A DNA stretch of 64,000 nucleotides from Chthoniobacterales bacterium. Lineage in GTDB: Bacteria; Verrucomicrobiota; Verrucomicrobiia; Chthoniobacterales; UBA10450. The notes beneath the pieces are model-generated. The model saw only the letters and a program-made list of their open reading frames with translations. It did no database searches and was not told the DNA's origin. Below are positions 24,663-55,844 of this stretch, one piece after another. A program made the position numbers and the translations under genes. The stretch is from positions 186,001-250,000 of the forward strand of contig DATENU010000020.1 of NCBI GenBank assembly GCA_035274845.1. Direction: 5' to 3'. How positions within the stretch are numbered: the stretch's first letter is position 1; every line of letters starts with the position of its first letter.

Positions 24663-26734
<2,072 letters not shown>

Positions 26735-26735
<1 letters not shown>

Positions 26736-26968
26736 TGCGCATTTCCATGAACACGCGTTTGAGCGGGAGCGCGCGGGTAGACCGCACGGATGTGCTGCCT
26801 TCAGGTAAGCTTCGCGGGCTGACGAAGCTTATCAAAATCACTGAGGACGTGCGCAAATATGCTGCCGAGCACGGTATGTTGGACCAAGAGGGGTTAGCGA
26901 AAGGAATGGCCGAAAAAGCCGCTACGTTCCGCGCGAGCGGCGCCGAACTCTACGTAGCCGACAAGTAG
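26735..26968 (+). pseudogene. ThiC C-terminal fragment, copy 2
   Basis: 77-codon open frame starting in the thiC stop (TGATG). The first 31 codons are unrelated to ThiC and include a hairpin, TAAGCTTCG/CGAAGCTTA (26807-26833). From about 26829 it reads [20 protein letters not shown]...FRASGAELYVADK, which aligns with the last 45 residues of ThiC but differs from the intact gene at many positions. The Fe-S cysteines are absent. It may be translated by coupling, but it is most simply a displaced or remnant thiC 3' end. Confidence 0.75.
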
Positions 26969-26974
26969 CTCCTT

Positions 26975-29900
26975 GTGGAACCCAAACGTCCTTCTTTGCA
27001 GCGTGAGTTGCAAATTCGTGCGGATTCTGATGCCGCTGAGAGTGAATTGGCGCGGAGTCTGACAGAATTAGCAGGGTACATTATCCCTCAAGCCGAGGCG
27101 CATCTAAAACAGATCATCGCGCAGCATCCCGGGTTCGACCTACACGACGAGAAGCATTCTGCGGCCGTTGCCGAGAATATTTTCAAACTGCTCGGACAGT
27201 GCCTAAATGCCCGTTCCACGTTCGAGCTGTTTATACTTTTGGCGGCCGCGTATCTTCACGACTGCGCGATGGCGCTGCCGCAGTGGGAGATAAATCTATT
27301 TCAGCTCACTGAAGGAGTCAGTAAGGATGGGACGAACGACGAGAGCGGCGTCCGCAATGATTTGAAGCCGACGCTCAGCTACGAAGCAGCTGTACACCTC
27401 GTTCGGGGCCGCTCCCGTGAGCTTTACGGCGATTATTCGGAAGCGCGACGATGGCTGTTTTCGGCGCGAAGCGAAACCGCGTTTGTGGATGATCTTGCGG
27501 CACGGCTTCGTGCGTACCAAGATTTCCGAAGTGGCCATGCCACCGCATTGCGCGAACTTGCTGAGAACGCCGAACACTTTAGCAAATATTCGGACGAGCT
27601 CCGACAGGGTTTTATCCGGGAAACGCACTCGACGAGAATCGAGACTTGGGTTCGCAATCTCGACGAACTGTTCGAAGAGAGGCTGTCGGGTCGTTGGGGA
27701 AAAGCTCTGGCGCATGATCTGGCACGGGTATGTAGGAGCCATGGGGAAGGAGGCGAGTACATCCGAGCATTGCCCCGGACGGCATCTTTCGTCGGATCGT
27801 CCTGCGCGGATTTGCAGCTCGTCGCGACGTTGCTCCGCCTCGGGGACATCATTCATTTCAGCGCGGATCGAGCACCATTGATTCTCTTCCGGGAAAAGCT
27901 GATCGCGTCGCCGATGAGCAGGAAGCATTGGGCCGTAAAGAACGAGGGAATCAACAATGCGATCTCAACATTACCTTCCGGCGAGCGGACGGTCCGATAT
28001 TCGGCATACTTCCAAACACCGGGGCTGTATTTTCTCTTTCAGGAATACGCCGATTCCATCGATCGCGAGCTCGGGCTATACAATGAGCTAATTAGCCGTC
28101 CCAAGGCGGACGGTTCCGGCATCGCTTCGGTTCCGCTCCTTGCGCTTCGTAGTGATCGCGCTGGCGTTCGCTACGACCCGGCCAAGTTCGAACCGATCGC
28201 GGGTTTGAAGTTTTCACTCAACCAGAAGCGCATTCTTGACTTGCTGATGGGTGTGAACCTTTACCAAGACCGGTTTGCGTGTCTGCGCGAACTGTACCAG
28301 AACGCGCTCGATGCATGCAGATGCATGCGATCCATCGCCGCAAACGCGAGCATAGACGGGAACATCGAGTTCGGTTTCGGGAAAAGTGCTGGCGCAGGGG
28401 AAACGTACTTGTTCTGCCGGGACAATGGCATCGGGATGACAAAGGACATTGTCTCTCGGTTCCTGCTACAAATCGGGAACTCCTTCTACCGGTCGTCAGA
28501 GTTCCAACGTCTTGCGACAAATCTCGGAAGTACATTCACGCCGACTTCGCAATTTGGGATTGGCATCCTGTCATGTTTCATGATCGGACATCGAATGGAA
28601 ATCGTATCGCAGCCAATTAGTAGTATGAGCGGAACGTCAGCGCCGATCTCGTTTGTAATCGATGGCCCGCACGAGCATTTCTACTACACGCCTGTACATC
28701 CTGCAGATGCCGAAGCTGTTGGTCTGCACGGAACCCTAGTAAAGGTTTTCCTGAAGGAAGACGCTCAAAAGGCGATTTACAACGACGACGAAGATGTTGC
28801 GTTTTATGAGCACGGCGCATCCGCCCTCACGCACGACACGCCGTTTTCGAAGCAGGCGAAACGATGGGAGTCTCATCTTTATCACAAGGTCGCCATGTTT
28901 GTTGCTCAGCCGGTTGCCGGAATCAACGTCACCATTCAACTGGCGAAAAATCGCAGAGTGCCCGTCCTACGGTCGACGATCCCGTTCAACTACAGGACTC
29001 TCGGGATCGACGAAAGTAAGATCAAAGTTCTGGACGAGGCACGTAGGAAGCTCCGATGGGAAGAGAAGAATTACGCGTACCTCGATGTCATCGATGCGGT
29101 GGTTTCAAAGGAAATTACTGTCGAACATGAAGGAACAACGTTCAGCTGTATCGTGACATTACCGCGGCGCGGCTTTGTGCCATCTGACTGCCGCGCGTTC
29201 GGAGAAGTACGCGCTCTGTCCAAGGACAGTGGAGTCTTAGTTGATGGTATAAGCATTGGCAAAGCCGAGATCCAGTATCGGTTCGAGCGATCAGACTCGC
29301 TATCGCGGGTTGGCATTATCAACTTCTCCGGACGAACCCGGCCGGTTCTCTCGGTCAATCGAATGAACGTCGTCGAGTGGCCCAGCAACATTGAGGAGAT
29401 AACGACCGAGCTAGCGAGTCGACTTACGTTACGCCTCATACAAGAAGTTGAGAGGCACGCTGCCACTGAACGATTGACGGCGGATTCTGACGAACTCGCG
29501 CTAACATGGGAGTACCTCTTTTCGCGCTTCGGATTTCTGGCGGGCGACCTGATCAACGCTATCGTGGGCCGCGCGGAAGCTCACGTCCCGCACCGAGAGC
29601 TGTCTCAAGTGGTTGGGTGCTCGACGACGATCGAAGCGTTTGCTGCAGCACCTGTTACCACACTAACGCTCGGCAGATACCATGGGCTCAGTCAAACAAC
29701 GAAGCTCCTGTTGATCGCGAAGCTTTCCGAAGCCGAGGAGGTCCACGTCAAAGACGGCCACGTTGAGATTCGCGGCGGCGCATTTGCACCCCTCAGAAAC
29801 TTCTACGATTGGGACCATTTCCGCGAGCGGCAGTATGTGTTTCGAGCTGATACGTGGACCGGGTGCTATGAACATTTCGACTTGCTATCTGAAGTGTGGC

Positions 29901-30442
29901 CTGTCATTCCGCTGCGACTATTTGATCAACTCGGCTCGCACTATGGCGAAATGGAGTTCCTCAATAAGCGGACGAAGGTAATTCACCATTACAGCAACTC
30001 ATTGAGTGCGGTGAGCATGCTAGATCCGCTTCTTATACACCAAAAGCTCGGGATTTACGACGCGAAGCACCGGAGCTTTCCGGAGCGAAAACCGTCGAGT
30101 TTCGTTTATCGGTTTGAACAGGCACGCAACGATTTTTGGTTCGCGGAGTTAGAATCCGATACTGGCGAATCAGGCTTGAAGCGTGTGCGACCGATGATCA
30201 CAGCGTTCGTTGCACCACGTGAGCTAAGCGATGCGGAGAGCAGTGAGCTCGAAAGATATCGTGCTGAAGACCCCGAGTACGTCGACGGCGTGGAGAACGG
30301 TTGGAGCTTGCTGTTCACCGGGGATCGCGATTTGAATGTCGTCTGTCTGCCGGGGATTGTTTCGCGACAGCAGCTAATCGAGGCGCTTCCTGAGGCCTTC
30401 CGGCTAATCCACAACAAAGACGAGTATGTCTTTCTGAGCTGA
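26975..30442 (+). CDS. Large HD-domain plus GHKL (HSP90-like) ATPase protein, candidate conflict/defence gene
   Basis: 1155 aa from GTG at 26975, 6 bp after the thiC remnant. The N-terminal region (about 50-330) has an HD-type metal phosphohydrolase pattern: LHDEKH (57-61), AAYLHDCAMA with H95-D96, and LLRLGDIIHFSADR. The GHKL ATPase follows with the N box ELYQNALDAC (about 438-447), G1 box DNGIGM (about 480-485) and G2 box QFGIGILSCF (about 524-533), as in HSP90/MutL/MORC. The C-terminal 500 residues are unrecognised. HD plus HSP90-like ATPases occur in predicted NTP-dependent conflict systems. Codon use looks less GC-biased than its neighbours, consistent with transfer. Biochemical role unknown. 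Confidence 0.8.
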   Translation: MEPKRPSLQRELQIRADSDAAESELARSLTELAGYIIPQAEAHLKQIIAQHPGFDLHDEKHSAAVAENIFKLLGQCLNARSTFELFILLAAAYLHDCAMALPQWEINLFQLTEGVSKDGTNDESGVRNDLKPTLSYEAAVHLVRGRSRELYGDYSEARRWLFSARSETAFVDDLAARLRAYQDFRSGHATALRELAENAEHFSKYSDELRQGFIRETHSTRIETWVRNLDELFEERLSGRWGKALAHDLARVCRSHGEGGEYIRALPRTASFVGSSCADLQLVATLLRLGDIIHFSADRAPLILFREKLIASPMSRKHWAVKNEGINNAISTLPSGERTVRYSAYFQTPGLYFLFQEYADSIDRELGLYNELISRPKADGSGIASVPLLALRSDRAGVRYDPAKFEPIAGLKFSLNQKRILDLLMGVNLYQDRFACLRELYQNALDACRCMRSIAANASIDGNIEFGFGKSAGAGETYLFCRDNGIGMTKDIVSRFLLQIGNSFYRSSEFQRLATNLGSTFTPTSQFGIGILSCFMIGHRMEIVSQPISSMSGTSAPISFVIDGPHEHFYYTPVHPADAEAVGLHGTLVKVFLKEDAQKAIYNDDEDVAFYEHGASALTHDTPFSKQAKRWESHLYHKVAMFVAQPVAGINVTIQLAKNRRVPVLRSTIPFNYRTLGIDESKIKVLDEARRKLRWEEKNYAYLDVIDAVVSKEITVEHEGTTFSCIVTLPRRGFVPSDCRAFGEVRALSKDSGVLVDGISIGKAEIQYRFERSDSLSRVGIINFSGRTRPVLSVNRMNVVEWPSNIEEITTELASRLTLRLIQEVERHAATERLTADSDELALTWEYLFSRFGFLAGDLINAIVGRAEAHVPHRELSQVVGCSTTIEAFAAAPVTTLTLGRYHGLSQTTKLLLIAKLSEAEEVHVKDGHVEIRGGAFAPLRNFYDWDHFRERQYVFRADTWTGCYEHFDLLSEVWPVIPLRLFDQLGSHYGEMEFLNKRTKVIHHYSNSLSAVSMLDPLLIHQKLGIYDAKHRSFPERKPSSFVYRFEQARNDFWFAELESDTGESGLKRVRPMITAFVAPRELSDAESSELERYRAEDPEYVDGVENGWSLLFTGDRDLNVVCLPGIVSRQQLIEALPEAFRLIHNKDEYVFLS

Positions 30443-32694: not shown

Positions 32695-32860
32695 ATGCTC
32701 CATGTGCGGCCCTCACTTTTGTTCCATGAAGATCACCGAGGATGTCCGCAAATTCGCCGCAGAGCAGGTGATAGCGGAAGACAAAGCTCTCGAATCAGGA
32801 CTGCAGGAAAAAAGGAAAGAATTCGTCGAGACCGGTGCCGAGCTCTACTCGAAGGTGTAG
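32695..32860 (+). pseudogene. ThiC C-terminal fragment, copy 3 (retains Fe-S cysteines)
   Basis: From about 32697 the frame reads [20 protein letters not shown], then [34 protein letters not shown] and stop. This aligns with the last 56 residues of ThiC including the CxxCxxxxC cluster motif. It is preceded in frame by GRRSLGEGG-like repeat sequence (CGGAGCCTTGGCGAAGGCGG). It cannot be an enzyme alone. It is diverged from both the intact 3' end and copy 2. Its stop codon sits in a GTAGC hairpin (32856-32890). Confidence 0.8.
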
Positions 32861-32909: not shown

Positions 32910-34118
32910 TTAAATGCCGCCTATTTGTCCGCGAAATTCATCCATTAGCTGCAAAATCCCTTCCCGAGTCGCAAACACTTCCTGGCGTGCTTCGGTGCTA
33001 ATCTCGGGGGGCAGCAACCCCTTCGCCACCACTGCTGACAAAGCGGCCTGCGCTTTGTGAAGGTGATCCAACGCGCGTTTCAGATAGGCGACTGTGAGGG
33101 CGGGGTCGTGAAAGCCTTGGCCGCGCGCAATCCCGTTCAACGCACCGGCCAGCTTTACGCTCGTCGTCTGAAATTCGAAAACGAATGCGTCGAGGTCGTC
33201 CCTCACCTCGTCGTCGTTTAACTCCTCAACCACACGGTGAAATTTCATCGCGGCTTCGAAGGCCCGATGCTGGAGCGGATGACGCAGGTCGCCGCTTTCG
33301 GTCCGAATCCAATCAATTCCTTCGCGATGCCGGTCGGGCTCGGGTTCAGGTTCGGCCAGCGCTTCTTCGCAGGCACGATTCATTTCATCGATCCGCCGTT
33401 CTTGTTCTTCAGCTTCCTCTTCTCCGAGCTCGCGTTCCCAGCCCATCTCCCGGGCGATTACGGCGTCGGCTTCGTCCGAATCGCCGTATTTCTCGAGTAA
33501 CTCCCCGTATTTCTCCGTGCGGGCGTCCGATTCTTTGAGAAAGCGCTCGTAATCGTGCTCGTCCCACGGCTGCTCGTGTTCCTTCTGCCCGCGCTTATGG
33601 TGTTCGATCGCATCGGTTAGTCTTTGCAGAAACGTCCCCATCGCCCTCGCAACGTCACGCGCGCGTTGTTCGTTTTCTTCCGGAGTCAGCTTCCATTGCG
33701 GCGGAGAAATCGTCAGATGATAATCTGTGCTCTCTATTACGACACGGCCATTCGTTTCACTGAACCACTCCAGATATAAGGAATTCGCCACATGCTCCGG
33801 CGGTTTCTCACCGTGCTTCGACATCGCGTAAGCCTCCTCAACAGAAACGTCGAGAACACGCGCTTTACGCGAGGCAGTGAGATCGCCGACCATACCCTGT
33901 TGGTGTCGCGAAATCCTTTCGAGGCCTGGATCGGCAAAGCGGCGCCCGCGGTTGCTGAAGGTGAGCAGGCAGCCGGCGAGATCTGGATGCGCGTTGCCGT
34001 TCAATTCGAGCAGAATCGGCTCCGGCTGACCCTCCAACCAGATCTTGCCTCGGACAATTCCTTTGGAGCGATTATCGATCTCGCCAGCGACCACGTTATC
34101 GTGAATCCGGAGGGCCAT
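32910..34118 (-). CDS. Acidic hypothetical protein
   Basis: 402 aa from ATG at 34118 (MALRIHDN); a TTG seven codons upstream lies in a GGCTACGG repeat. The N-terminal 100 residues look beta-rich. Residues of about 140-265 are strongly charged helices (ELGEEEAEEQERRIDEMNRA). The C-terminal 120 residues are helical (FHRVVEELNDDEVRDDLDAF ... KALDHLHKAQ). No family is recognised. No signal peptide; presumably cytoplasmic. Confidence 0.7.
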   Translation of the reverse strand: MALRIHDNVVAGEIDNRSKGIVRGKIWLEGQPEPILLELNGNAHPDLAGCLLTFSNRGRRFADPGLERISRHQQGMVGDLTASRKARVLDVSVEEAYAMSKHGEKPPEHVANSLYLEWFSETNGRVVIESTDYHLTISPPQWKLTPEENEQRARDVARAMGTFLQRLTDAIEHHKRGQKEHEQPWDEHDYERFLKESDARTEKYGELLEKYGDSDEADAVIAREMGWERELGEEEAEEQERRIDEMNRACEEALAEPEPEPDRHREGIDWIRTESGDLRHPLQHRAFEAAMKFHRVVEELNDDEVRDDLDAFVFEFQTTSVKLAGALNGIARGQGFHDPALTVAYLKRALDHLHKAQAALSAVVAKGLLPPEISTEARQEVFATREGILQLMDEFRGQIGGI

Positions 34119-34162
34119 GCGCAATTCGACCGTAGCCAAGGGCGCGGCCCGAAGGCGAGCCT

Positions 34163-42238: not shown

Positions 42239-42523
42239 TCACAGCGGGCGGTAGGCCATTCTTGGCTGCCTCTCGGGGCTCAGGCGTCGAGATGAATTCG
42301 GAATTCGGGGTCAGTCCTTTTTTCTTGCAATTTGTTGCGTTCCAAACGGTCGTGATCCGATCGATTTTGGGTGCTGTATGTTGCGGGTGGGGACATTACA
42401 CCGCCAATCCAACCCGAAAGGGTCTTCTCTTGAACGGCCCGCAGTCGCTTACCAAGAACGACGATACAAACCTCAGAATCTCGACATTTGAAACGAAGGG
42501 AAGTGAACGCCAGATTTGGGCGA
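42239..42523. other. Non-coding gap after the STAND gene
   Basis: No credible gene. It contains GAATTCGGAATTCGGGGTCA near 42296-42316, a sequence style often seen at the edges of REP-associated transposase elements, but no transposase is present. Otherwise nothing recognised. Confidence 0.4.
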
Positions 42524-43012: not shown

Positions 43013-43081
43013 AATCTCTGGCCTTGCGCGATTCCGGGTGTTCGGAGGTTGCAACTGCGCCTGCAAAAGCGGTCATGGTGG

Positions 43082-43240
43082 GCTGCCGGATGCCAGCATT
43101 CACCGTGACTGAGTATCTTGCCGCGTCTCCGGCGGATCGCTTGAAACGCGTTGAACGACGTTCGACCGGGGAATCAACCGGGTCCTGCCGGGATACGAAT
43201 AGGCATCCAATCGGGTACGAATCTCCGAGCTTGCGTTGAC
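43082..43240 (+). pseudogene. Frameshifted, truncated DUF1801 duplicate
   Basis: MPAFTVTEYLAASPADRLKR matches the start of the intact gene at 45460 (MPASIVTEYLAALPADRRDA). Similarity at DNA level continues (ACCGGGGAATCAACCGGGTC versus GCCGGGGAATTAACCGGGCC) but with a frameshift, so the frame ends early. Even the upstream GGTCATGGTGGGCTGCCGGA matches the intact copy's leader. A remnant of duplication 2.4 kb away. Confidence 0.75.
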
Positions 43241-45459: not shown

Positions 45460-45924
45460 ATGCCAGCATCTATCGTGACTGAGTATCTTGCCGCGCTCCC
45501 CGCGGATCGCCGTGACGCGTTGAACGAAGTTCGCCGGGGAATTAACCGGGCCCTGCCGCCGGGTTACAAAGAAGGCATCCAGTTTGGCATGATCAGCTGG
45601 TTCGTTCCGCTGTCCACATATCCGGCGGGCTATGGTGGCAACAAAAAGGTCGCGCTGCCGCTTGTCAGCCTGGCGTCACAGAAGAATTACATGGCATTGC
45701 ACATGGTTTGTTTTTACGGACAGCCGGCGTTGCGGGAGTGGTTTACCGCGCAATACGCCAAGAGCGGCAAGAAACTGGACATGGGCCAGGGCTGTCTTCG
45801 TTTCAAGACGTTGCCGGACCTCGCGCTGGATGTGGTGGAAAAGACGGTGGCCCGGCTTCCGGTCGAGGATTACATCGCAGGGTATCAGGCTATGCGGGGC
45901 GCCGCCAAGAAAAGTAAGAAGTAA
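45460..45924 (+). CDS. DUF1801 family protein
   Basis: 154 aa. IVTEYLAALPADRRDALNEV, PPGYKEGIQFGMISWFVPLS, LALASQ-type LVSLASQKNYMALHM and the terminal LPVEDYIAGYQ follow the DUF1801 (YdhG-like) pattern. The fold is small, alpha/beta, and of unknown role. Its last codons and stop are formed by an AAGTAAGAAG micro-repeat that continues to about 45945. A broken duplicate of its 5' end is at 43082-43240. Confidence 0.88.
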   Translation: MPASIVTEYLAALPADRRDALNEVRRGINRALPPGYKEGIQFGMISWFVPLSTYPAGYGGNKKVALPLVSLASQKNYMALHMVCFYGQPALREWFTAQYAKSGKKLDMGQGCLRFKTLPDLALDVVEKTVARLPVEDYIAGYQAMRGAAKKSKK

Positions 45925-46076: not shown

Positions 46077-46961
46077 TCATTGGCGGCCGGACGGATTACT
46101 TGAATGTGTTCCTTTGACCAGGAGCCACATGGCCAGGGAGGCTTCACCGAAGAAGCAAGGGATGATGATCCAGGGAGAGAGAAGATGAGCCAGCGAAGGC
46201 GCGATCGCGTCGGACAATGTGCTGATGAAGTAGCAAATCCCGGCAATGATCATCATCACGCCGATAGTTTTTGGCACCAGGGCGGTGCGCAGGATCGCGG
46301 TTCCAAGGGCGGCGCAAAAACCCGAAAAGAAGAATAGAGCGAGCCCGAAGCCGATTTGAGAGAGACGGAGGGCAACGTAGAGGAGTGCCTGCCGATCTGC
46401 TCCGCCGATGCCGGCCAACGCGCTCGGGAATTCAATCGTTAAGAGTGGGACATAGAGCGGGAGAAGAGCCGCGGCTTCCACGGCTTGAGACACGATGCCG
46501 GACGTCAAGGCGATCAGGGCGAGAGTCGGCTGGACCTGCTTAATAATTCCGTAAAGGAGCACGTTCATCACCGTGGCCGGACCGGCCAAGTAGATGAGAT
46601 GAACCGCAATACCCCAACGCCAGAGCGATTCATGGGCGGCGATGGCTGCAGCTGTAGCTGCGGTGTCGCCATGGACCGTGACAGACTCATCGACGATACC
46701 GGCAAATAAACCGCCCGCGATGACGAGGACGTAGAGCGCGCCAGCGATTCGTGCGGTCCGGCGCGTGCCCGCTGCCTCGGCTATGGCCGGGCTGCCAGGA
46801 ACGTTCGATTCCGAGTTCGGGGTCACGCTGCGGACGTTATATTCCCCGACACGAAGCGTCGAGGGGGCAATGATATTGTCGTGATTGCCGTCCGGCAGGC
46901 GCCGGGCGGAAGAATTCTGTCGTGCCGCATCGCGGGACTCGATCGCGAGGCTAATAGTCAT
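46077..46961 (-). CDS. DUF4386 family membrane protein
   Basis: 294 aa. After a polar N-terminal stretch of about 65 residues (which may be partly untranslated), RTARIAGALYVLVIAGGLFA begins a six-helix membrane domain with the DUF4386 features. These include HLIYLAGPATVMNVLLYGII and the final IIIPCFFGEASLAMWLLVKG. Function unknown. The start at 46961 is uncertain. Confidence 0.8.
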   Translation of the reverse strand: MTISLAIESRDAARQNSSARRLPDGNHDNIIAPSTLRVGEYNVRSVTPNSESNVPGSPAIAEAAGTRRTARIAGALYVLVIAGGLFAGIVDESVTVHGDTAATAAAIAAHESLWRWGIAVHLIYLAGPATVMNVLLYGIIKQVQPTLALIALTSGIVSQAVEAAALLPLYVPLLTIEFPSALAGIGGADRQALLYVALRLSQIGFGLALFFFSGFCAALGTAILRTALVPKTIGVMMIIAGICYFISTLSDAIAPSLAHLLSPWIIIPCFFGEASLAMWLLVKGTHSSNPSGRQ

Positions 46962-47050: not shown

Positions 47051-47249
47051 TGCGTCGCCCACAGGGCGACGGCTACAAGAAGAAGCAGTGTAGGGCAACC
47101 GCAGCGGTTGCCTCGAACGAGGGCAGCCGGCGCGCCCGGCCTACAAATCTCGCAGGCGAAGGCAACGACAGGCTCCCCGCTTGCCTATTGTAGGGCAAGC
47201 ACTCGGCTTGCCGGGGAGAAATCACGGCAACCGAAGCGGTCGCCCTACA
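47051..47249. repeat. Cluster of three TGTAG...CTACA hairpin repeats
   Basis: The gap 46962-47350 holds GCGTCGCCCACAGGGCGACG plus GCTACA (to 47077), an element 47089-47145 (TGTAGGGCAACCGCAGCGGT to CGCCCGGCCTACA), and an element 47189-47249 (TGTAGGGCAAGCACTCGGCT to GCGGTCGCCCTACA). The latter two are the closest relatives of the copy inside thiC. No gene. Confidence 0.85.
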
Positions 47250-47252
47250 ATG

Positions 47253-47339
47253 TTAGAAATGCTGGCCGACGTATTCCCACATCTGGTGGTGCCAATAGGG
47301 CCATTCGTGGCCGCCTTTCGGGCCCCAATCGTCGAGATT
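47253..47339 (-). pseudogene. Duplicated 3' end of the esterase gene
   Basis: The last 28 codons (DDWGPKGGHEWPYWHHQMWE, YVGQHF, stop) of the esterase at 49814-50542 are repeated here in the same orientation. 47257-47303 is identical to 49818-49864 (47 nt), and the whole 82-nt block has only three mismatches. The secreted-protein gene 47351-49570 lies exactly between the two copies. Confidence 0.92.
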
Positions 47340-47350
47340 CGAAGTCCGCC

Positions 47351-49570
47351 CTACGGCGTCCCTCGATCGTAGATTTCAATAAGGCCGACACCAATGGAAT
47401 TGGTGTCCCCATACATCAGCGCAGTGTAAGGGCCTGGCGACAGCGTAGCAGCGATGGCCGCCTCGAGATTGCTACTCGGCGCCAAACCCGCCGCACTGAT
47501 TTCCGCTGCTTGAGCCGGAACATCCCGCCAGTCGTTATTCGCGATGAGGAGGGATCCATTGAGATCGCGCAGTTCCAGGGTGGGATTCGCCAGAGCGTTT
47601 GGCACCCCTGCCGCAGCGAGACTGGGACCAATTCCCCGCACCACAATCCGGTCCTCCCCGCTGTTACCGCCCAGAATGAAGCCCGCGATCACGATGTTGG
47701 AATTCGTCCCGACAAAGGCCCGCGTGCTGATATTAGCCAGCTTCGAGTCCACTGTCTGACTCAGGTCGTACACTTCTACCACGCCGATACCGGAAGTATT
47801 ATTCTTGCCTCTGATGACCGCGGTATAGAGGCCAGGACTCAAGGTCGCATCTATCGCTGATCCGAAATCATCGTAGGGCGCGAGGCCAGTGGCCAGGATC
47901 GCGGCAGCCTGGACAGGATCATCTCGCCAGTTGTCGTTTGTGATCGTAGGAAATGCACCCGGACCGTGCAGTTCCAACACCGGGTCATACAGCCGATCGA
48001 ACTTGACGTACATTGCCCCAATGGCCCGAAGAACCACGTGTTTGGGTGCGTTGCCGGTGATGATAAACCCACCAATGCCCACGTTATCACCGGTCTGCAC
48101 TCGCATCCGGCTGGAAAGGTTGAGGGCCTGGGCCGCCGGAGACGAGCTGGGTGTTGCAGTTGGAATCGGCGTGGTGGTTGGGGTTGGTGTGGGCGCGGGG
48201 GTGGCAGGGGGCGTTGGGGTCGGCGAAGGGGGCGTTGGGGTCGGCGAAGGGGGCGTTGGAGTCGGCGAAGCAGGAGTCGGGGTTGGCGAAGCGGGAGTTG
48301 GGGTCGAGGTCGGCGTGGGTGAGCTTTGCGCCGGGGCCACTGAGATAGGCAGAGCCCGCAACGTAGTATTGCCGCTGTCATCGGTGACGGTGAGGCGAAC
48401 GGAATAATTCCCCGGCGCCGGAAATGTCTTCGCCGGATTCTGCGCGATGGAAAACGTGCCGTCGTCGAAGGTCCATTGATACGCCACGATTGTTCCGTCA
48501 GGATCGGTGGCACTTGCCGTGAAGTTCACGCTCAGTGGAGGCGGGCCGCTCGAGACGCTCGCGCCAGCTGTTACCTGCGGCGGCTGGCCGGTAACAGTTC
48601 GCTTGAGAAACCAGGGGGCGGCGGTGGGATCGGTCTTGAAAAACGCGAGAAGGTGAGCGCCCACTTTCGGCACGCCTCCGCTCGCAGAAGGATGCGTAAA
48701 GTCGGACTCGAGATCGGAGCAGAGCCAGGTGAACCCATCGGAGCGCGGGGTAAGACCGTCAGCCCAGATATAAGGACCCCATAAGATCAGCGGCGCAACC
48801 ACGGCGCCCTTAGCAGGATCGAAATTAAGATTGCCTGCGCCGGTAATCTGATCCTCAATCGTCCACTTAACTGCGAAGCCGGTCTCATAGGCGAAGGGCT
48901 CCGGATTCAAGGCGGTCGGAGTATTCGTGTAAGCCCGTGAGCGCGGGGAAAGATAGGTGATCTTGATGTTAGGGAATTTCGTCTTGAGATTGCGCACGAT
49001 GATCTCAAGGTCGGCCTGCAACGCCTGCGCGTGCGCCGGGAACGCACCGTAGTTATTTGGACCTGCCAGTGCTTGCTTGAGCCAGGCCACTTGCACCTGC
49101 TGCGGCGCAACCCCGGCCGCTGCGAGACGCTGATTGACTATGCTCCACGTCGTCGCGTTCGGGTTGATCCAGGCCGGAGCGTCCTGGCCGCCTTGCGCGC
49201 CGTCTACGATAACCAGCTGCGGATTCTTCGCGGGATCAGCGTCGGCGCGCAGTTTGAAGTTCTGTGTGCCCTTGGTCGCGAATTCCTGCGTCGTGTTTGA
49301 CATGCCGATTGAAATCATGACGATCCTGCCATTGACCGAATCCGGATCGCCGGAGGCGTTCAATGGCTTGATCTGATCGGTGGCTATGGTGAGAGCAGCC
49401 GCAGCGTGCGCATTCGGAGGCGTATCGAAACCGGCTGGATACAGCCCTGCCGTGAAGCCTTGGTAACTACCGGGTCCCAAATCATTGAGCGGAATGGTGC
49501 CGGTGCTGGTAAGAGAACAGTCGGCGCGCAGAAGCGCAGGCCTTAGGACAAGCGCTGCGACAAACAACAT
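47351..49570 (-). CDS. Secreted PKD-domain protein with verrucomicrobial C-terminal repeat pair
   Basis: 739 aa. Signal peptide (MLFVAALVLRPALLRAD). An N-terminal domain (about 20-320) has VNGRIVMISIGMSNTTQEF and FTHPSASGG-like blocks that recall SGNH/GDSL-type esterases (possible Ser near MSN and late Asp/His), not certain. A PKD domain (about 325-405) shows VAYQWTFDDGTFS and VRLTVTDDSGNT. A (SPTPTP)n linker (about 413-480) follows. Two copies of a beta domain complete it: LSSRMRVQTGDNVGIGGFII and ANISTRAFVGTNSNIVIAGF, each ending GIGxxEVYD. The C-terminal half is shared with the 1573-aa gene. It is bracketed by duplicated esterase 3' ends, suggesting insertion. Confidence 0.82.
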   Translation of the reverse strand: MLFVAALVLRPALLRADCSLTSTGTIPLNDLGPGSYQGFTAGLYPAGFDTPPNAHAAAALTIATDQIKPLNASGDPDSVNGRIVMISIGMSNTTQEFATKGTQNFKLRADADPAKNPQLVIVDGAQGGQDAPAWINPNATTWSIVNQRLAAAGVAPQQVQVAWLKQALAGPNNYGAFPAHAQALQADLEIIVRNLKTKFPNIKITYLSPRSRAYTNTPTALNPEPFAYETGFAVKWTIEDQITGAGNLNFDPAKGAVVAPLILWGPYIWADGLTPRSDGFTWLCSDLESDFTHPSASGGVPKVGAHLLAFFKTDPTAAPWFLKRTVTGQPPQVTAGASVSSGPPPLSVNFTASATDPDGTIVAYQWTFDDGTFSIAQNPAKTFPAPGNYSVRLTVTDDSGNTTLRALPISVAPAQSSPTPTSTPTPASPTPTPASPTPTPPSPTPTPPSPTPTPPATPAPTPTPTTTPIPTATPSSSPAAQALNLSSRMRVQTGDNVGIGGFIITGNAPKHVVLRAIGAMYVKFDRLYDPVLELHGPGAFPTITNDNWRDDPVQAAAILATGLAPYDDFGSAIDATLSPGLYTAVIRGKNNTSGIGVVEVYDLSQTVDSKLANISTRAFVGTNSNIVIAGFILGGNSGEDRIVVRGIGPSLAAAGVPNALANPTLELRDLNGSLLIANNDWRDVPAQAAEISAAGLAPSSNLEAAIAATLSPGPYTALMYGDTNSIGVGLIEIYDRGTP

Positions 49571-49813
49571 GGCGCACCAACCTGCGCGGCGTGAAAGGCC
49601 CCTGACCGCTGGGACGGCCGGCGCGGCCCAGGCAATGAGGCGGGGAATCTCGGCAAGTGCTCGGATGCCCGGATCATGCCCGGGCCACCGCGAGAACGCA
49701 AGCCTTCAGGTCCGCCGAGCGCGGCGCCAGCGCGCTCTCGTCCTCTCATTGCAAATTGTCAGGAGATCGGATTGTAGGCCGTCTCGTGAGACGGCGTGTT
49801 TAACAATCAGCGG

Positions 49814-50542
49814 CTAAAAATGCTGGCCGACGTATTCCCACATCTGGTGGTGCCAATAGGGCCACTCGTGGCCGCCTTTCGGACCCCAGTCGTCGAGATG
49901 ATGAGGAATGCCGGCGTTCCGGAGGACTTCGGACATTTTGTAGGTGGGGCCGGGTTGTTCCCACGGGCCGCAGCCGGTGGCGAGATGGATGTCGCAGCTG
50001 GCGAGCTGCTCGCGAAACCAGGGATCATTCTGGTTCGCCATGTAGTCGACCGGGTTATTGAAGTAGAAGTTGTCGTCGTACATTCCGTCCATGGAATCGC
50101 GCAGATCGTAAACGCCGGAGAGGGCGTAGCAGCGCTTCACGCGGTCGGGGTGTTTGAAGAGAGTGTTGGCGGCGTGATAGGCCCCGAGCGAGGCGCCGTA
50201 GGTGGTGACCGGGACGGCGCTCTGGCATTGGTCGTAGATGAAAGGGATGACTTCGCTGGCCACGTAGTCGTCGTATTGCGCCTGGAGCCAGCTGCGATGG
50301 AAGGGGTGCGCGTTCTTGTTATTGAACGAATCGCTCTGGACGCCGTTGATGCAGAAGATCCTGATCCGGCCCTGGTCGAGATACGGGGAGAGGGTGCGGA
50401 TCATGCCCTGGCCTTCCTGTTCGTGTTCGTCCCCCATGCTGGTGGGGAAGGCAATGATGGGCAGGCCGTAATTGCCGTAGACGTTGATGCCCATGTCGCG
50501 GCTGAGGCGGTGGGAATACCAGCGGTGATGTTCGCGATGCAT
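49814..50542 (-). CDS. Alpha/beta-hydrolase esterase
   Basis: 242 aa. VYGNYGLPIIAFPTSMGDEH forms the first strand and oxyanion region. The nucleophile elbow TYGASLGAYHA gives S118. The acid is probably in the LSGVYDLRDSMDG segment, and the His in KGGHEWPYWHHQMWEY near the C terminus. The pattern matches the putative-esterase/PHB-depolymerase-like families that act on acyl esters or carbohydrate esters. ATG at 50542 (MHREHHRWYS) is preferred; the frame upstream reads repeat sequence. The 3' end is duplicated at 47253-47339. Confidence 0.88.
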   Translation of the reverse strand: MHREHHRWYSHRLSRDMGINVYGNYGLPIIAFPTSMGDEHEQEGQGMIRTLSPYLDQGRIRIFCINGVQSDSFNNKNAHPFHRSWLQAQYDDYVASEVIPFIYDQCQSAVPVTTYGASLGAYHAANTLFKHPDRVKRCYALSGVYDLRDSMDGMYDDNFYFNNPVDYMANQNDPWFREQLASCDIHLATGCGPWEQPGPTYKMSEVLRNAGIPHHLDDWGPKGGHEWPYWHHQMWEYVGQHF

Positions 50543-50683
50543 AATTCCGCGAAAATACCCGGTTCGCGGGAAGTGCCAATCCCAAATCCTAGATTCCAAT
50601 CGGTGTGGGGCGCGTGTCACACCCGCAGCGGGAGGGGAAGGCGGAATGATTCTGCGGGTGGAGACACCCACCGCTACAGCGAT

Positions 50684-50919: not shown

Positions 50920-53900
50920 TTACTGAACGCTGTAGACCTCGACGAGTCCGATACCGACGCCGCCGTTCTTCCCAGCAAGGATGGCCGTGAAGGCGCCGGG
51001 CGGCAGGGAAGTGTAGATACCGGATTCCTTCGGATCGGACGGCGCGAGCTGACTGGCAATGAGGGCCGCGGCAGAAACCGGATCGCTCTCCCAGTCGTCG
51101 TTTGTGATCAAGACAGTGCCATTGCTGTCGCGCAGCTCGATTGTCGGATCCGCGAGGACGCCGTTAAGACCGAACTGGCTGAGCGATGGGCCCATCCCGC
51201 GGACCACGACGTTGCCGTTGGCGGTGCTGCCGCCCAGGATGAACCCGGCGATAAGGACGTTGTTTCCGGATTGGACAAAGCCGCGGGTGCTGATGTTACC
51301 CAGGTGTGAATCGGAGCTGGCGCTCGCATCGTAAACTTCCACAACGCCGACGCCGGTAGTTCCATTCTTGCCGGTGAGGAGAGCGGTGTACGCTCCGGGT
51401 GCAAGGGTGACCACCATCGCAGATTCGCGATCGTCACCCGGTTGCAGGCCAGTGGCCTCGATCTCTGCGCGTTGCGTGTCCTTCCAATTATCGTTCGACT
51501 GGATCAGCAAGCCGTTGGAGCCGCGCAGTTCCAGGAACGGGTCGGCAAGGAAATTGGTGATGCCAGAACCGGCGAGGACCGGGCCCATTCCGCGGAGGAC
51601 GATCTTCTTCGGCGCGTTCCCGGTGATAATGAAGCCGCCGATCATAAGTTTGTCACCGGTGCCGACGTTGAGACGACTGGAGAGGTTCATCGGCCGAGCT
51701 GGCGCCGCCGTTGGGGTGGCCGTAGCAGTAGCGGTCGCGGAAGCCGTGGCAGTGGCGGTTGGGGTAGGGGAAGCCGTAGCAGTGGCCGTCGGTGTAGGTG
51801 TCGCCGTGGCCGTAGGCGTCGGTGAGATTACGGGCGTCGCGGTCGGAGTTGCGGAGGGGGTCGCAGTCGGCGTCGCGGTTGGGGTCGCAGTCGGACTAGC
51901 TGTGGCCGTGGGGGTAGCGGTTGCCGTAGCAGTTGCGGTTGGAGTCGCGGTGGCAGTTGCGGTCGGAGTCGCAGTGGCAGTTGCGGTTGGCGTCGCAGTG
52001 GCGGTTGCGGTTGGCGTCGTAGTGGCGGTTGCGGTCGGGGTCGCAGTGGCAGTTGCGGTCGGAGTCGCAGTGGCGGTTGCGGTTGGCGTCGCGGTCGGTG
52101 TTGCAGTCGGCGTCGCGGTCGGCGTTGCAGTTGGCGTCGCGGTCGGAGTCGCCGTTGGGGTTGCGGTTGGCGTTGCAGTTGGTGTTGCGGTCGGAGTCGC
52201 GGTCGGCGTCGCCGTCGGGGTGGCAGTTGGCGTCGCGGTAGGTGTAGCCGTGGGTGTCGCAGTCGGGGTAGCGGTTGGCGTCGCTGTCGCCGTTGCGGTC
52301 GGTGAGGGGGTTGGCGTTGGCGTTGGCGTGGGCGCCGCAACGGTCAGGACGACGCTGTTCGCGTTATAAGTAATGGTGAAATCGGTGCCATCAATGTTGA
52401 TAGAAGAGCCTTGCGCGAACGTGCCGGTGAGCACGTCGGTGCTTTGAATGATGGCGAACTGTTGTCCGGGTGTGGGCGTGAAGCCGTTGATGAGCGTGCC
52501 GCTGAGGGTAGTGACACCGGCCCCGAGACTAACGGTCCCAGTAACTTGCAGCTGATCATATCCGGTGCCGAAATTCACGCCGCCGATTTCGATGGTGAAA
52601 GTCGTTGCCGTGTTGAAGGTCACATTGCCGGCGGAAGTCAGCACGCCGGCGCTGTTTCCTGGGGCCACGGATCCATTGGTCGCGATAATGCCGCCGACTG
52701 TGCCGGAGCCGCCCAGCGTCCCCCCGTTAACATTCATCAAACTGCCGGAAGTGTTGCCGTTTATCAGCAAAGTCCCGGCGTTAATCGTCGTGATGCCGGT
52801 GTACGTATTCGAGGCGTTGCTGAGAGTCAGGATGCCGGGGCCATTTTTCACAAGGCCGCCCGCGCCGCTTATTTGCCCCGTCCAAATGGAACTAAGGCCG
52901 CTGCCAATGTTGGCGCCGACGCTTCCACTCCCCGCGATCGGAATGCTGCCGCTTGGGGGGTTGATATTATACCCGACTCCGTTGAGGACGAAATTGTTGT
53001 TGATGGTCGAATTATCCAGCGGGGTGAGGAAGGCCAGCCCGCTCGTGTTCGAATTGTTCGTCGAGATCAAGCCGGTGGGCAGCGCTCCGGAGGTGTAGGC
53101 GATGAAACTATTGTTGTTCGTGCCATTAATGATAAGCGGGGCTGTGGCGCCTGGTGTGCCATTGAAGGTCACCTGGGTGTTGTTCCCTGTTTCGCCGAGC
53201 CAGAAGCCACCAGCGTTGCTGTAGTTACCCGAGAACGTCATGCGCCCGTTGACGACGCGAATGGAGGAGGGACCGGAGATGTTACCCATGAAATTGGTGG
53301 ACCCGGTTCCGGTGGCGCCGCCGCCTTGGATCCGGAATGGGGTGTTCACCGTGATATTACCGGTGAGGGTTTGAGAACCAGTGGTATTATTCAGGGGACT
53401 CAGCCCGGCCATGAAAGAGTTGCCAAGCGCTACACCGACGTTGGCCTGAGTGCCGTTATTAACGATAATGTCACGACCGATGGTGGCGTTGGCGCCTGCG
53501 CCCGAGATACTGAGGCTGGGAACTGCACCCACCATATCGGGGTCGTTGGCTGAGACGCCCAGGGTAATCGCTCCCTGACCAGCGAGCGTCTGGCTGATGT
53601 TAATATTAAAAGCCCCCTCGCGAACTTCGATCGAGCCACCGAAGGTGTTCGTAGCCAGGGCGATCGTTCCTATGGTGTTCTCTGTGATCGTTCCAGCAAG
53701 TCCGGACAAGTCGCCGCTCAGGGTAAGCGTGCCGGTGGAATTTAGTAAGCCAGCGCTGCCGGTGATGGCGCTACTCACGGTATTGGTGCCAAAGAAGGTG
53801 CCGGGGGCGGAGCCGAAGGCAATCGTTCCGCCAGTGTAGGTGCCTGTGCCGCCAGTGCTCAGGACCATTCCGGAATTGATTCCCAGAGTGACACCGCCTC

Positions 53901-55641
53901 CAAGCGTGAGAGCAAAGGAGGTGGTGCCGCGCTTTAGGGCGTTGATATTCACCGAAGAACTAACCGTGGCGGCCGCGGTCACCGAAACGTTCGTTCCGGA
54001 TGTGCTGAAGTCAGTAGAATAACCGGTGTAAGGCGTGAGTCCGGTCGCGCCGTTGTAAGTAAGGAAGTCAGTCGTCTGGACAATGCGCGGCAAGATGCCG
54101 GTCGCGTCCACGGGGGGAAGGGTGCCGTTCACAAAAACCTTGTCGTTAACGGCAAGGCTGGTCGAGCTCAGGGTGAGGGTCGATCGCGCCGCCACGGTGA
54201 GATCGCTCGCAATGGTAAAGGTGGCTGTGCCAGTCCCACCGGTATTTATCGTAAAGACATTGTTTCCGCCGAGCACGCTGACGCTGCCGATCGTCTCGGA
54301 GGCAGCGACATTATTTTGCCCCCGGTAAGTAAAGTTGGCGTCGCGTAGCTGAAGCGCGACGTTGTCCGCCAAACGATTGTTATTCTGCGCCCCAGGAATT
54401 GTCGGAGAAAAGTTCCCGGCTCCGCCGATGGACGCGTTATTCTCAATTTGGAAGGTGGCGCCGGAGAATACCTGGATCGTGGTGGCTGAAAGATAAGAGC
54501 CGTTGGCGCCTTGGAGCGAAAGTGCGCCCTGACCGGTATTTCCAATCACTTCAACCGAAGTAGAAGCATTCGTGCCAGTGACGGCGCTGAAACCGCCACC
54601 GATTCGAGTCGATCCGGTGTAGGTATTGTTGCCGAACAGGCCGATCCCATCGCCGGGGGCCATAACGCCGTTCTGATTGTAACTCAGCGTCTTGAGGAGC
54701 GAACCGTTGGAAAGAACCCCCATCAGTTGCAGCGCTCCCCACTGATTCTGGGTTACGGCGTTTGAGACGCGGATGATCTGGGTGCCGCCGCCGAAATCCA
54801 GGTTGGGAGCGATCGTGTTGCTGCCGACACTGAAGTTAAACACATTTCCCAGAACATTGATCTCGCCGGTGACGCGCAGGGTCCCGGTGCCGGTAATACC
54901 AAGACCGGCCGTGTTAGTGGCCGGATTAAAGGCGAAGAAATCCGTGTCGTTATAAAAGGTGATCGAGCCCAGGGTGATGTTCAGGGCGCCAAAATCAAAC
55001 AGGCCATCGGAAATGCCGAGACGCGTGGTCGCGGGCAGAACGCTGGTGTTCATAATCTGGGTAGTGCCACTGTACTGGGTCGGAGTTTGGCTGCTGATTC
55101 CTCCCGCGTAAATGTCGACGGGGAGAATGTTAGTCGCGCTGGTAAGGGATAAGCCGAAGCCGCTAAAAGTAAGAGGCCCGGCCAACTGCAAGATTCCCTG
55201 GCCCGCCTTCGTCAGGCCAAACGAGCTGTTGATTGGCGTGTTGATCGTGGCGGTGAGACCGGTATCCACGAAGGCTTTCCTGGTGCCAAGCGAACTGGTG
55301 CCACTGACGAAGTTGAGCGGGCCGGAGCCATTCAGGACATAGCCGCCCGCGATTAAGCCAATACTGTTGACGTTGATCGGCAAAGCGACGCTGACCGTAC
55401 CGACGCCGGTCGAGCCGAAGATCGCGCCGTCTCCGTTCGCGTTATTCCAGATGCCCGAAGACCAGTTCATGTCGGTGGTGTTCCAGAGAAAATTTCCCTG
55501 GCCATTGTTCCAGGTTACATCAGCGGCGCGGAGCGGAGCGACGATAACGCAGAGAAGCGCGAGCGTGAGTAAAAAGAAGAAGCGCGAGGTGCGCTTACGG
55601 GAACGAATTGACGACAATACGGCTGTGGGAGACGCGTTCAT
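50920..55641 (-). CDS. Giant secreted autotransporter-repeat protein with minisatellite linker
   Basis: 1573 aa from ATG 55641. Signal peptide ([20 protein letters not shown], then LRA-A). About 1060 residues of beta-helix-type sequence carry autotransporter-associated repeats ([45 protein letters not shown]). A Pro/Thr/Ala linker (about 1100-1310) is encoded by a DNA minisatellite. Then comes the same C-terminal domain pair as in the 739-aa protein ([20 protein letters not shown] ... [20 protein letters not shown]). There is no beta-barrel translocator at the C terminus, so the end pair may serve as a surface-anchoring or sorting domain (inference). The frame continues 46 codons upstream, but the signal peptide fixes the start. 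Confidence 0.85.
51715..52335. repeat. Coding minisatellite (GTCGGCGTCGCG/GTTGCGGT-type units)
   Basis: About 620 bp of imperfect 6-, 12- and 18-bp units (GTCGGAGTCGCGGTGGCAGT and variants) encoding [20 protein letters not shown] on the minus strand. Such a tract should vary in length by slippage without breaking the frame. It is also where assembly errors would concentrate. Confidence 0.92.
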
Positions 55642-55844
55642 GGCCGCGATTGTGCACGGTTCGCGCCGCGTCCGAAATGGGACCTTAGTCTTATCTAATT
55701 CCGTTAACCTACGGAATAGTAATCCATTCGTTAGGCAAAGTTGCGGGACAGATTCGATTTGGCGGACGGGATTGTTCATTTCGCTTCGGTGATTGGGAAG
55801 CGGGAGATTTCATCATATCGCCGAGCCTGCATTCACTATCTGGA

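Follow-up and report, generated by a model that had tools for sequence, protein, structure and literature searches.

The window analysed here, a 64,000-nucleotide stretch of contig DATENU010000020.1 from a Chthoniobacterales bacterium (genome G000), contains an esterase gene whose 3′ end occurs a second time on the far side of a neighbouring gene, referred to below as the cargo. Read leftwards from the esterase, the order is cargo (47351-49570), displaced esterase end, GTAG hairpins, a DUF4386 gene, and a gene that we take to belong to the DUF1801 family. The features of this region are as follows.

42254..42309, minus strand, older decayed remnant of an esterase 3′ end, about 77% identical to 49860-49914 and also matching congener esterases; this third esterase end was absent from the initial annotation
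43042..43220, plus strand, decayed copy (78%) of the DUF1801-like 5′ end, which brackets an aminotransferase-like gene; a mirror-image case
45460..45924, plus strand, DUF1801-like gene, the convergent esterase neighbour in several congeners (from congener context)
46077..46961, minus strand, DUF4386 gene between the displaced end and the DUF1801-like gene; closest relative at 39% among 60 family genomes
47076..47252, GTAG hairpins (at 47076, 47090 and 47190) directly behind the displaced esterase end, like hairpins found after other stop codons
47253..47338, minus strand, displaced 3′ end of the esterase (27 terminal codons and stop); repeat with five silent differences
47351-49570, minus strand, cargo gene, whose 739-aa product is predicted to be secreted and contains a PKD domain (ORF list and Pfam)
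49571..49813, spacer from the esterase stop to the cargo start, different from the sequence behind the displaced end
49814..50671, minus strand, intact esterase (PF00756, Pfam E=4.5e-12), 82-89% protein identity to congeners

The two esterase ends and their surroundings

A repeat search placed the direct copies of the esterase end at 47254-47338 and 49815-49899, 85 nt long, 95% identical, and 2561 bp apart; self-blastn over 360 kb of the contig gave an E value of 1e-30 for the pair. The repeats lie in coding sequence at gene ends: the copied unit consists of the last 27 codons of the esterase and the stop codon, both copies being closed on the minus strand, by TAG at 49814-49816 and by TAA at 47253-47255. 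The direct repeat described in the initial annotation, there given as 82 bp and 28 codons, is therefore real. The same annotation placed the cargo exactly between the copies, which holds on one side, where the stop codon of the cargo ORF is 12 bp from the outer copy, and not on the other, where its start leaves a gap of about 240 bp to the esterase stop.

All five differences between the two ends are silent (GAC/GAT, GGT/GGC, GAG/GAA, TTT/TTC, and TAG/TAA, intact/truncated), a pattern with P of about 2e-4 under neutrality. In an alignment with seven congeners, the base prevailing among them is found in the truncated copy at four of the five sites (at one of these by 4 to 3 only) and in the intact copy at one. 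Because of the silent-only differences and the congeneric state of the truncated copy, the two ends look, at the level of sequence, like alleles from diverged lineages and not like a target-site duplication, and the earlier proposal that the target had been duplicated upon insertion was the weaker part of the initial annotation. The Q in “GQHF” is common to both copies (congeners have A or T), which places the origin of both in the home lineage or a close sister. Similarity between the copies ends at the stop codon, with nothing in common beyond it; at junction 47338 no similarity past the repeat was seen between the two copies. We infer that the 3′ end of the intact esterase is the incoming allele and the displaced end the resident one; the spacer would, from its sequence, be incoming DNA as well.

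Two other origins of the repeat are disfavoured. Local duplication followed by decay is a poor fit, since the differences are all silent and the truncated copy is congeneric at four of five sites. A transposon target-site duplication would be short, identical, and a few bases long; the repeat is 85 bp at 95% identity, in frame with the gene end.

The esterase was kept in all seven congeners sampled, in none of them with the cargo behind it. In G003, G004, G005, and G007, a convergent DUF1801-like gene is located near the esterase, with neither the cargo nor the DUF4386 gene present. The displaced end here thus lies on the native flank, on the side of the esterase facing the DUF1801-like gene, with the DUF4386 gene intervening. 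The latter, missing from the congeners' esterase locus, is probably a separate gain. Uninterrupted esterase loci, which the initial annotation had suggested looking for in relatives, were thus found in congeners without the cargo, several of them near the DUF1801-like gene. Together with the location of cargo orthologs elsewhere, they support an insertion of the cargo at the esterase end. Further esterase 3′ ends or fragments are present in G025, G009, G031, G003, G007, and G016.

PKD was the sole family found by Pfam in the cargo; the target is an esterase, and no toxin domain with an immunity gene was found. The cargo is the sole gene-sized ORF of the insert besides overlapping antisense frames, no other ORF of recombinase size being present. 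Its two-part C-terminal tail is also carried by the neighbour at 50920-55779, a PATR autotransporter-like protein of 1619 aa that also contains a long PT-rich repeat. Orthologs of the first cargo domain were detected in nine of 61 family genomes, counting the home genome and including G002, G006, and G016. None outside the home genome adjoins the esterase where context was read, and a flanking gene-end repeat is absent around the orthologs in G002, G016, and G063.

The hairpins abutting the outer copy had been proposed to be relevant to mobility. Another GTAG hairpin is located at 49774 and about ten are present in the window, which means that the outer copy is not alone in having them. In the home contig they are about four-fold more frequent than in shuffled sequence, at a density similar to that in control genomes of the family. 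They are common after stop codons, and given the similar density in the controls, no specific link to mobility is seen and they were not retained as its agent. Separately, the G000 genome contains nine matches to Y1_Tnp (REP-type transposase), which, with the hairpin excess, suggests that REP-like elements are present.

Displaced ends behind other genes

A search for other cargo flanked by duplicated gene ends, as advised in the initial annotation, was successful at an S9 peptidase gene (G006), at thiC, at an MFS-like gene, and at one more gene. In G006, a cargo ortholog lies behind the S9 peptidase gene (a name read off the sequence itself rather than a family search), and ~150 bp of the peptidase 3′ end, up to the stop codon, recur after the cargo. 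The two peptidase tails differ at 15 silent and 4 replacement codons, and the insert holds no recombinase-sized ORF other than the cargo. The uninterrupted site is seen in G000, the home genome, and in G005, where the next, convergent gene follows at 9 bp and 93 bp, respectively. Thus, one cargo gene is found in two species at two sites, followed by different resident tails.

The parallel with thiC drawn by the initial annotation also held, the second target gene being followed by two displaced ends in the window.

24675..26735, plus strand, intact thiC
26831..26968, plus strand, first displaced thiC 3′ end, 46% protein identity
26975..32614, genes between the displaced thiC ends, including one for a 1155-aa protein
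32696..32860, plus strand, second displaced thiC 3′ end, 67% identity, on the side of the DNA-ligase-like gene

A DNA-ligase-like gene comes after thiC in G003, and its counterpart in the window is found past the second displaced end, with 32910-34139 intervening. The 1155-aa protein (26975-30442) had no match in 60 other family genomes and is probably a recent gain. Displaced thiC ends were found in G000, G001, G007, G020, and G022, and the start points of the fragments differ among cases, except for the G000/G007 pair. The members of that pair, 32696-32860 in G000 and 3032-3196 of L219 in G007, have a common hairpin junction, GCCTNGGCGAAGGNGGATGC, a conserved frame, and many silent changes, which suggests that they exchanged again with intact alleles or serve some function. 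The coding region of thiC itself contains, at 25083-25200, a low-complexity in-frame insert of GTCCAAC repeats. Like scars occur at the MFS-like gene (named by sequence appearance) in G003 and G006, and at one small gene of no assigned function in G005 and G007. In G003, L035 9832-16415 contains four to five modules of the DUF1801-like 5′ end at 0.9-2.8 kb spacing, with the palindrome CTTTGCAAAG; these copies look partly like tandem duplications and were dropped as clean cases.

In 1.14 Mb of the genus, 10 3′-terminal fragments lie downstream of their own gene and 4 upstream, one repeated module of G007 supplying two of the former and two of the latter. The controls (0.97 Mb from two other genera of the family and E. 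coli) yielded two downstream fragments, both less than 350 bp away. At distances of at least 1 kb, there were eight fragments in the genus and none in the controls (six versus none without the repeated G007 module), a contrast inflated by the partial choice of genus contigs for holding a case, and dependent on the counts of a simple ORF caller. The contrast, which describes sampled stretches and not a genome-wide rate, is suggestive.

A probable one-sided gene gain and competing explanations

The locus was probably left by a one-sided gain of a gene, in which homologous recombination was combined with an illegitimate second junction, in the manner of homology-facilitated illegitimate recombination (HFIR), or in which a circle integrated by a single crossover. 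DNA of a close relative, with an esterase end followed by the cargo, would have recombined with the resident esterase through the common coding sequence, and its other end would have been joined without homology 27 codons ahead of the resident stop codon. Alternatively, a circle bearing such a junction could have integrated by a single crossover. In the product, an esterase with the incoming end would precede the cargo, and the displaced resident end would follow it on the resident flank; the linear and the circular routes give an identical product here. This reading is based on the observed geometry, on differences that are silent throughout, on the congeneric states of the displaced copy, on relatives whose loci are uninterrupted, and on recurrence at other targets. 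As in HFIR, one side has homology within the resident gene (the esterase repeat), the displaced ends of the esterase and thiC stay on their native flanks, and start points vary between events (esterase and thiC). ComEC and DprA families are encoded in the genome; they permit, and do not prove, transformation. Several observations count against one-sided gain. Replacement and silent changes are equally numerous in some fragments (those of the 280-aa and 285-aa genes), four 3′ fragments are found upstream of their gene instead of downstream, and the common hairpin junction and conserved frame of the G000/G007 thiC pair are not predicted by simple decay. The donor arrangement, an esterase end directly followed by the cargo with no displaced end, was not found among the relatives examined.

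Other histories would also leave a gene end on either side of the cargo. Site-specific integration of a small island for which the esterase 3′ end served as attachment site and which restored the gene with a replacement end, its integrase being lost or acting from elsewhere, would agree with the geometry and silent differences generally known for 3′-end attachment sites, and the genome has five tyrosine recombinase matches. We nevertheless consider it unlikely: no recombinase-sized ORF accompanies the cargo in the esterase or G006 insert, start points vary so widely within the esterase and thiC that there is no fixed core, and mirror cases occur at the 5′ end of the DUF1801-like gene. Tandem duplication of the esterase end with the cargo, the second cargo being lost afterwards, would place the fragment downstream on the same strand, as is found; at 95% identity, the spacer should be repeated too, yet similarity halts at the stop codon, no remnant of a second cargo was detected behind the displaced end, and silent-only differences are a misfit for a decaying fragment, which makes this history quite improbable. 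It is very unlikely that a complete tandem paralog of the esterase once stood here and that deletion spared only its final 27 codons, now seen as the displaced end. Silent-only differences would be expected had the second copy been functional until recently; however, no full tandem pair is present at the congeners' esterase loci, and unrelated deletions would be needed at the esterase, S9 peptidase, thiC, and MFS-like genes, in most cases with the 3′ end surviving downstream of the intact gene.

The 5% allele-like divergence of the two ends could also arise if cargo-bearing and cargo-free strain haplotypes had been joined in one contig, the relatives, and probably the home genome too, being metagenome-derived. 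For the esterase case alone, such a strain chimera is conceivable. There is, though, no run of N at the junction, and the architecture recurs in several assemblies at divergences far past those of strains (46-74% protein identity for the thiC fragments). Chimerism, possible for one locus, thus fails to account for the class, and we give it little credence. It is also doubtful that the scars were left by an undescribed recombination process that preferentially puts single genes at resident gene ends and restores the end, with recurrent hot spots at the esterase, thiC, and MFS-like genes, perhaps aided by post-stop hairpins and Y1-type REP transposases acting in trans.

Known systems and significance

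Tyrosine integrases insert islands at the 3′ ends of genes such as tRNA genes and icd. As at the esterase, the gene end is duplicated with silent differences and the gene is restored; here, in contrast, the insert is without an integrase and there is no fixed core position. The minimal mobile elements of Neisseria consist of variable genes located between conserved genes, without mobility genes. The esterase locus is similar in both respects, but two-sided homologous exchange should leave no displaced gene end.

A search of the literature for precedents turned up displaced ends of type T6SS/Rhs only. Displacement of effector 3′ ends with orphan immunity genes has been described for the T6SS of Vibrio cholerae, as have orphan Rhs ends, and homology-facilitated illegitimate recombination was suggested (PMC5361080). 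There, as here, an intact gene with a new end is followed by a new gene or genes, and the old 3′ part is pushed downstream (PMC5361080). Unlike the different toxin domains in that system, the two ends here are identical in the peptide they encode, and ordinary genes serve as targets. The new part relative to this precedent is the recurrent use of ordinary genes as targets. As cited in PMC5361080, HFIR comes from laboratory work in Acinetobacter, Pseudomonas stutzeri, and Streptococcus pneumoniae, where, as proposed here, one end is anchored by homology, the other is joined without it, and foreign DNA is added. HFIR as cited there is known from laboratory transformants, whereas here it would be read from scars in wild genomes.

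In this lineage of soil Verrucomicrobia, ordinary genes seem to receive foreign genes just downstream, each arriving with a new version of the resident gene's tail, and the former tail stays behind as a scar. Such displaced ends should not be annotated as plain gene fragments or attachment sites. For single genes that enter a chromosome without a mobile element, the evidence is usually indirect; from displaced gene ends, the insertion point, direction, and relative age of past gains can be read, and the frequency of one-sided recombination becomes measurable in uncultured soil bacteria.
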